Part shown: positions 41,609 through 44,162 of the stretch, piece after piece | How the letters are laid out: every line of letters starts with the position of its first letter | Position numbering within the stretch: position 1 is the first letter of the stretch | From: Haladaptatus paucihalophilus DX253 | GTDB lineage: Archaea; Halobacteriota; Halobacteria; Halobacteriales; Haladaptataceae | Assembly (NCBI RefSeq): GCF_000376445.1 | Contig: NZ_AQXI01000001.1 | Location: 1,148,962-1,212,961, forward strand | Direction of reading: 5' to 3' | Length of the DNA: 64,000 nt | The notes under the pieces: model-generated | Database searches by the model: none | Seen by the model: the letters and a program-made list of their open reading frames with translations, nothing else | What the model was told of the DNA's origin: nothing | Position numbers and translations under genes: made by a program

Positions 41609-41680
41609 CTACACAGTCGCCGACCTACAACTACTCACGCGACCACGTACAACTACTCCTCCACTGACATACAACTACTC
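41604..41680 (+). repeat. Four-copy TACAACTACTC repeat, 22-bp period
   Basis: TACAACTACTC occurs exactly at 41626-41636, 41648-41658 and 41670-41680. A related TGTAACTACAC at 41604-41614 overlaps the stop of the Nif3-like gene. All four are spaced by exactly 22 bp (about two helical turns); the intervening bases differ. It could be an array of protein-binding sites. Confidence 0.7.
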
Positions 41681-41734
41681 GTGTTCGGTAGCTGATTTTT
41701 CGTCGTTCGTCATACGATTTCGTCGAAACAGGAG

Positions 41735-41740
41735 GTATTA
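41735..41740 (+). promoter_or_regulatory. TATA-like element before the candidate RNA
   Basis: ATTAAAAG around 41733-41741, about 26 bp before the first base of the structured segment at ~41762. It follows the 22-bp repeat array. Confidence 0.4.
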
Positions 41741-41765
41741 AAAGGGGTGGCGACGAGGAAACGGA

Positions 41766-41934
41766 CGTGTCCTGCGGGTTTCTACGGCCCGAGAGGACCG
41801 CCGGAACCATCGAGGTCACGTTCCGGTCTCGCCGGACACGGGCCGCCGCCGACCGGCCCCGATAGCCGAACTTCGGTTACGGCTAATCGAAGCGCCGCTG
41901 GCCGCTGACCTCGCGCCACGCGCGCCCTCGTGGC
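41766..41934 (+). ncRNA. Candidate multi-branched structured RNA upstream of dhs
   Basis: The 385-bp gap 41609-41993 has no credible gene. It can fold as a three-way junction: CGTGTCC (41766-41772) with GGACACG (41834-41840) closes two hairpins, CGGG/CCCG (41775-41791) and CCGGAAC/GTTCCGG (41801-41826). It continues with TAGCCG-AAC-TTCG-GTT-A-CGGCTA (41863-41885), a 9-bp stem capped by a UUCG tetraloop, and GCCACG/CGTGGC (41915-41934). An ACA lies shortly after the last stem, so an H/ACA guide is one option. The family is not identified. Confidence 0.5.
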
Positions 41935-41993
41935 AGTCGGCAACACAGTTTCTAACCGGGACATTGAATCGCCTGTAGCCGACACTGTGGAGT

Positions 41994-43823: not shown

Positions 43824-44162
43824 GCGGCTATATTCGACCTCCGCGGCCTTGTACACTGACAGTAGTTCCCGGCTCCCGAGAACGGACGGGGCACCCGCAA
43901 CCCGACGAAGGGCGACGGAAACGCTCTTTTCCCCGGTGTCCCTATCGCCGGATGGCCGATGACGAGAACGGCGTTCCGAACCGGCGTGGCGGCTGGTTAT
44001 GACGAACCCTATGAGTGCCGAGGCCACCGCGTTTACTCGTCTCGTGTCGACGGTTGGGTCGTTATCAACACGGATAGCACAACGAAGGAATCAATTCCGT
44101 GAACATATTGTTTCATAATTTAATCTAGAAAAGATATATATTTATAAACTATATTTTATCTA
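43824..44162. other. Intergenic region with AT-rich promoter stretch
   Basis: No gene recognised. From about 44100 it is very AT-rich, with TTTATAAA at 44141-44148, a likely TATA element for the secreted protein gene that follows. A short palindrome, GGAAT-CA-ATTCC, lies at 44087-44098. Confidence 0.5.

Follow-up and report, generated by a model that had tools for sequence, protein, structure and literature searches.

The region between the nif3-like gene and dhs in the window, by which we mean the whole stretch of 64,000 nucleotides of Haladaptatus paucihalophilus DX253 DNA that was analysed, is on comparative evidence a real and highly conserved gene for a structured RNA. By its homology to known guide RNAs of transposons, this RNA belongs to the haloarchaeal TnpB omegaRNA family, and its persistence together with a TnpB that has lost its catalytic residues, encoded elsewhere in the same genomes, suggests a domesticated RNA-guided DNA-binding system. 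The reading we favor, with a probability of about 0.7, is a TldR-like system, split and vertically inherited, in which the nuclease-dead TnpB would work with a trans-encoded, omegaRNA-derived RNA.

The RNA gene and its promoter occupy the following positions in the window:

41736-41743, + strand: TATA-like promoter element TATTAAAA, ~26 bp upstream of the RNA start
41763-41953, + strand: stand-alone omegaRNA-type RNA gene of ~190 nt, with approximate ends inferred from conservation

In an alignment of the homologues, the conserved block extends from the TATA box through the U-rich stretch, and the flanks diverge on both sides. The TATA-like element, which the original prediction had placed about 26 bp before the RNA, was found at 41736 and is kept in the aligned homologues while the sequence around it decays, with the variant TACTAAAA in two of them. 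The interval from the stop codon of nif3-like to the promoter of the RNA holds three near-copies of TACAACTACTC, spaced ~25 nt apart (window 41625-41682). Two genes downstream of the RNA, a match to the box C/D guide RNA sR-tMet (Rfam RF02163, 64.9 bits) covers window 43954-44025 on the + strand.

A DNA search of 59 relatives recovered one copy of the RNA per genome in 10/10 Haladaptatus/Halomicrococcus and 16/18 Halorussus genomes, and the same search found it absent from every other family. We also built a covariance model (R1) from the Haladaptatus/Halorussus/Halomicrococcus family RNAs, which matched 28/28 genomes of these genera at about 190-216 bits and gave weaker matches in other haloarchaeal families. 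The genome set includes Haladaptatus halobius (NZ_CP085335.1), Halorussus aquaticus (NZ_CP100400.1) and Halomicrococcus gelatinilyticus (CP100465.1). These genome comparisons indicate that the RNA is a single-copy gene, vertically inherited within one haloarchaeal family that spans three genera.

The RNA is predicted to combine a three-way junction with further hairpins and two long-range loop pairings:

41766-41840, + strand: three-way junction, with stems P1 (41766-41778/41828-41840), P2 (41785-41789/41796-41800) and P3 (41801-41807/41820-41826)
41812-41817, + strand: P3 loop GAGGUC, in loop-loop contact with GACCUC at 41907-41912
41840-41858, + strand: core hairpin GGGCCG/CGGCCC with the loop GCCGAC (41848-41853), the pairing partner of GUCGGC at 41936-41941
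41860-41889, + strand: hairpin Ha, UUCG-capped in the window
41892-41923, + strand: hairpin Hb/Hc, whose loop at 41907-41912 meets the P3 loop
41936-41941, + strand: GUCGGC, by position and pairing the counterpart of GUUGAC, the transposon-encoded motif at which the scaffold of mobile omegaRNAs ends on its 3' side
41942-41953, + strand: conserved 3' tail AACACAGUUUCU, at the omegaRNA guide position, where sequence conservation stops

The closing stem, two inner hairpins, UUCG-capped stem and further 3' hairpin region described by the original prediction are all present in the sequence. The closing stem CGUGUCC/GGACACG (41766-41772/41834-41840) can be extended to 41778/41828, and the inner hairpins of the junction span 41785-41800 and 41801-41826. 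Across 26 homologues, 95.0% of cells pair over the whole structure, and double-sided changes occur in 18 pairs and 102 cells. Shuffled controls gave 89.9%, 12.5 pairs and 40 cells, with 0/500 reaching the observed 102 cells, and slid versions of the structure gave at most 38%, 5 and 18; covariation across the haloarchaeal homologues is therefore strong and the structure is conserved. Pair counts over the 26 sequences show double-sided changes in each of P1, P2 and P3, and such changes are also found in Ha (94.7% of cells paired) and in both Hb and Hc (99.0 and 98.5%). The UUCG tetraloop itself varies among homologues, and Ha is longer, by an insertion, in mobile relatives. The contact between the P3 and Hc loops covaries (GGAG/CUCC and GGG/CCC variants), and 0/2000 partner shuffles were as good. 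The core hairpin is invariant, and in 26/26 sequences its loop, GCCRAC, is paired to a GUYGGC close to the 3' end, with one double-sided change. Thus, the RNA carries a pseudoknot. Beyond GUYGGC, the tails of the 26 genomes share the consensus ANYACMGUUU over 10-12 nt.

Folding energy is unexceptional (z = -1.6 for the + strand, -1.9 for the - strand) and therefore gives no support to the earlier claim that the structure lies far beyond that of the other gaps. Single-sequence folding energy is uninformative for this RNA, and the comparative evidence settles the structure. The suggestion of a three-way-junction RNA, perhaps a new one, fared better: the junction covaries, and no Rfam family matched the RNA region at its gathering score, the best permissive match being to a microRNA model (E 0.47). 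Two further candidates were rejected. The archaeal RNase P RNA model (RF00373) has no match in the window, and the RNase P RNA of this genome lies at C1:2184953-2185402. Complementarity with helix 69 of the 23S rRNA (GGUUACGGC) is not conserved among homologues.

Relationship to TnpB omegaRNAs was assessed by a non-circular test, using a second covariance model (R2) built from only five mobile, IS605-flanked RNAs of other families. R2 recovered the window RNA over 41763-41863 at a score of 61.9 bits (E 6.5e-10), far above the runner-up match at 16.5 bits, and it matched 26/26 tested family loci (54-74 bits) as well as the 3' ends of the tested mobile tnpB genes of the nearest clade (8/8, 37-46 bits). 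Thus, the window RNA is an omegaRNA-class scaffold without a transposon. Neither IS605 transposon ends nor an adjacent tnpB were seen around it, its neighbours being nif3-like and dhs or other genes; since it lies outside a tnpB 3' end and outside IS605 ends, we call it omegaRNA-derived. The omegaRNAs of nearest-clade mobile tnpB genes have a short P1 and lack the P2/P3 junction, which counts against the split system. The loop-loop match occurs in five distant mobile elements over 5-6 bp and is not significant alone. When named genomes were scanned for the core as an exact pattern, chance matches in GC-rich bacteria turned up as well.

Among 20 R1 matches examined outside the family, 19 are followed by an IS605-type right-end motif (AGTTGAC or near, after a hairpin). 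A TnpB match is missing from the locus in 18 of the 20; one of the others overlaps a tnpB 3' end and one lies near an opposite-strand tnpB remnant. In each of eight elements that were read out, the RNA is preceded by a left end and a promoter-like stretch and followed by a right end, with tnpB absent. In the best cases, the left ends of RNA-only elements are 88-96% identical to those of tnpB elements over 55-79 bp. The RNA-only IS605-type mini-elements are of a first type (L059, L060, L061, L065, L066) and a second type (L062, L063, L067), with L220-L223, L229 and L231-L237 in addition; all carry only an omegaRNA between their left and right ends, and they occur in several haloarchaeal families. 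These tnpB-less mini-elements are possibly the PATEs of the literature. The mobile relatives are inserted 3' of TTCAA, and therefore the ancestral TAM was probably TTCAA or TTCRA. At three loci (L131, L132 and L064), tnpB lies just downstream of a tRNA gene, and a copy of the tRNA 3' end, clearest in L131, follows past the end of tnpB; the TTCRA of the T-loop could therefore be the TAM there, and the tRNA end the guide target.

The candidate protein partner is encoded at a second locus:

C1:1913213-1914421: P0001, a TnpB-like open reading frame (PF07282, 72.4 bits) that matches Cas12f and TnpB structures

It is one of three TnpB-like reading frames (PF07282) in the H. paucihalophilus genome; the other two have IS right ends and P0001 has none. 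Exactly one ortholog per genome, at 66-100% identity, was found in 27/28 family genomes, the exception being a genome that is 62% complete. Other TnpBs in the family genomes share about 56% identity or less with P0001, and the full-length ones 53% or less. The orthologs group in a single clade (96/94), and throughout the family they are flanked by a divergent M50/CBS site-2 protease gene and a cupin gene.

The RuvC-II Glu is replaced by Gly in 27/27 orthologs, the RuvC-I Asp by Ser or Ala in 9/10 of those from Haladaptatus/Halomicrococcus, and the RuvC-III Asp by His in four, while the mobile relatives of this clade that were examined keep D, E and D intact. Comparison of L074-L083 with L084-L100 shows a graded loss, in which the RuvC-II Glu is gone in all, the RuvC-I Asp in most Haladaptatus and the RuvC-III Asp in four. 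In two members of another TnpB subfamily (L071 and L072), the residue aligned with the RuvC-II Glu is likewise Gly, and therefore this exchange does not by itself prove inactivity in every TnpB. R2 detected an omegaRNA at 0/27 P0001-ortholog loci. The ortholog is the sole TnpB match in three genomes (G003, G019 and G022), so that any TnpB-type partner of the RNA there is probably this protein. The RNA and protein genes are unlinked and their pairing therefore rests on co-inheritance and descent; as both are fixed family-wide, their co-occurrence carries little independent weight.

We propose the following course of events. An IS605-type RNA element in the ancestor of Haladaptatus, Halorussus and Halomicrococcus would have lost its transposon ends, retained its promoter and then become fixed as a chromosomal gene. 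Its likely partner would be the TnpB fixed at the second locus, between the M50 site-2 protease gene and the cupin gene, which has lost RuvC catalytic residues and no longer contains the omegaRNA that is normally part of a tnpB 3' end. Without the latter, it would have to take an RNA in trans. The dead TnpB would bind the junction/pseudoknot scaffold of the stand-alone RNA, the nucleotides 3' of GUYGGC would serve as a short guide beside the TAM, and the protein would bind without cutting at a single site or a small number of sites, in the chromosome or in invaders, as TldR repressors do. A good probability attaches to the fuller statement, that a nuclease-dead, RNA-guided DNA-binding system is fixed across the family with its guide RNA and TnpB at two loci, and that the guide RNA came from omegaRNA-only transposons.

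Target searches returned no common site, and this, like the shortness of the tail, weighs against the split system. An exact 12-mer search with the tail found no target shared among genomes, a 10-mer tail search of three genomes no common site, and searches for the TAM TTCRA plus 7 nt, made in Haladaptatus and in Halorussus, no site shared by the genomes; nor was there a common site when the dead-TnpB loci and the RNA loci were themselves searched as tail targets. This could reflect a guide of fewer than 10 nt, a TAM that has since changed, targets in invaders, or an RNA that acts guide-less. The short tail and the lack of a shared target would suit a guide-less decoy, an omegaRNA scaffold that the host keeps to occupy invading IS605 TnpB nucleases; the dead TnpB would then also act against transposons, either on its own or together with the RNA. 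The scaffold is indeed kin to those of active TnpBs, and active-type TnpBs are present in many family genomes. However, G003, G019 and G022 retain the RNA with no TnpB match other than the dead TnpB, and conservation of the tail extends past the scaffold; we regard the decoy as unlikely.

It is a little harder still to credit an omegaRNA-derived small RNA that acts without a TnpB-type protein, for instance by base pairing with mRNA, with the dead TnpB having evolved separately. The lack of linkage between the two genes would be expected if so, but the RNA retains an entire scaffold of the protein-binding type, including the pseudoknot, and the same genomes retain a dead TnpB that has no RNA of its own.

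That the RNA is a 5' leader or riboswitch of dhs is very improbable. In the window, as in several relatives, it does immediately precede dhs in the same orientation, and nif3-like and dhs are its usual neighbours. In several genomes, however, another gene comes next or dhs is ~1 kb further off, and there the RNA and its promoter are unchanged; the RNA is therefore a gene of its own and not a dhs leader. Its mobile homologues, moreover, are self-contained elements with different neighbours.

The option of an H/ACA guide RNA, raised in the original prediction, would make the RNA a counterpart of the two-hairpin Haloferax H/ACA RNA and is almost certainly wrong: haloarchaea do possess an H/ACA RNA (PMC2584109) and an ACA stands near the RNA 3' end in the window, but this box varies among homologues (ACA/ACC), the fold is a junction with a pseudoknot in which the loop pairing is internal and pocket-type hairpins are absent, and the homologues are omegaRNAs that form part of IS605 elements or of the 3' ends of tnpB genes. 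The prediction holds for the three-way junction and the new RNA and falls for H/ACA, and neither the relation to IS200/IS605 TnpB nor the dead TnpB encoded elsewhere was noticed in it.

Comparison with known systems indicates what is shared and what sets the split system apart. The omegaRNAs of haloarchaeal IS200/IS605 TnpBs (reRNA, sotRNA) contain a pseudoknot between a hairpin loop and a 3' motif (PMC12558985). The window RNA resembles them in its loop/3'-motif pseudoknot, its right-end-like hairpin and the sequence and structure homology detected by covariance models. It differs in that transposon ends are absent, no tnpB lies beside it, and it has its own promoter and a single copy, inherited vertically in one family, with a conserved 3' tail that does not depend on an insertion site.

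PATEs are described as transposase-free, and some are degenerate IS605 elements (PMC3119063). The mobile RNA relatives are similarly ORF-less with IS605-type ends; unlike PATEs as described, the RNA-only elements here carry an omegaRNA, and the window RNA is without element ends. To judge by the RNA-only mini-elements, ORF-less repeats of haloarchaea may provide TnpB with guide RNAs in trans.

Bacterial TldRs are TnpBs with inactivated nuclease domains that still bind a guide RNA and DNA and act as gene repressors, and gRNAs acting in trans were suggested for one bacterial locus with a broken tldR gene (PMC13418256). A literature search confined mainly to open-access papers found no archaeal report of such a split system. 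If true, our reading provides a case of how a transposon nuclease turns into a host DNA-binding factor, and of guide RNAs becoming independent genes, a step that CRISPR-type systems also need. Like TldRs (PMC13418256), the P0001 orthologs are TnpBs that have lost RuvC residues, are immobile and are conserved. TldR regulators, however, have been described from bacteria, in which protein and guide RNA are encoded side by side, whereas the system proposed here would be archaeal, with a candidate guide RNA supplied from a separate locus, two separated genes kept together over three genera, and repression as its presumed function by analogy.
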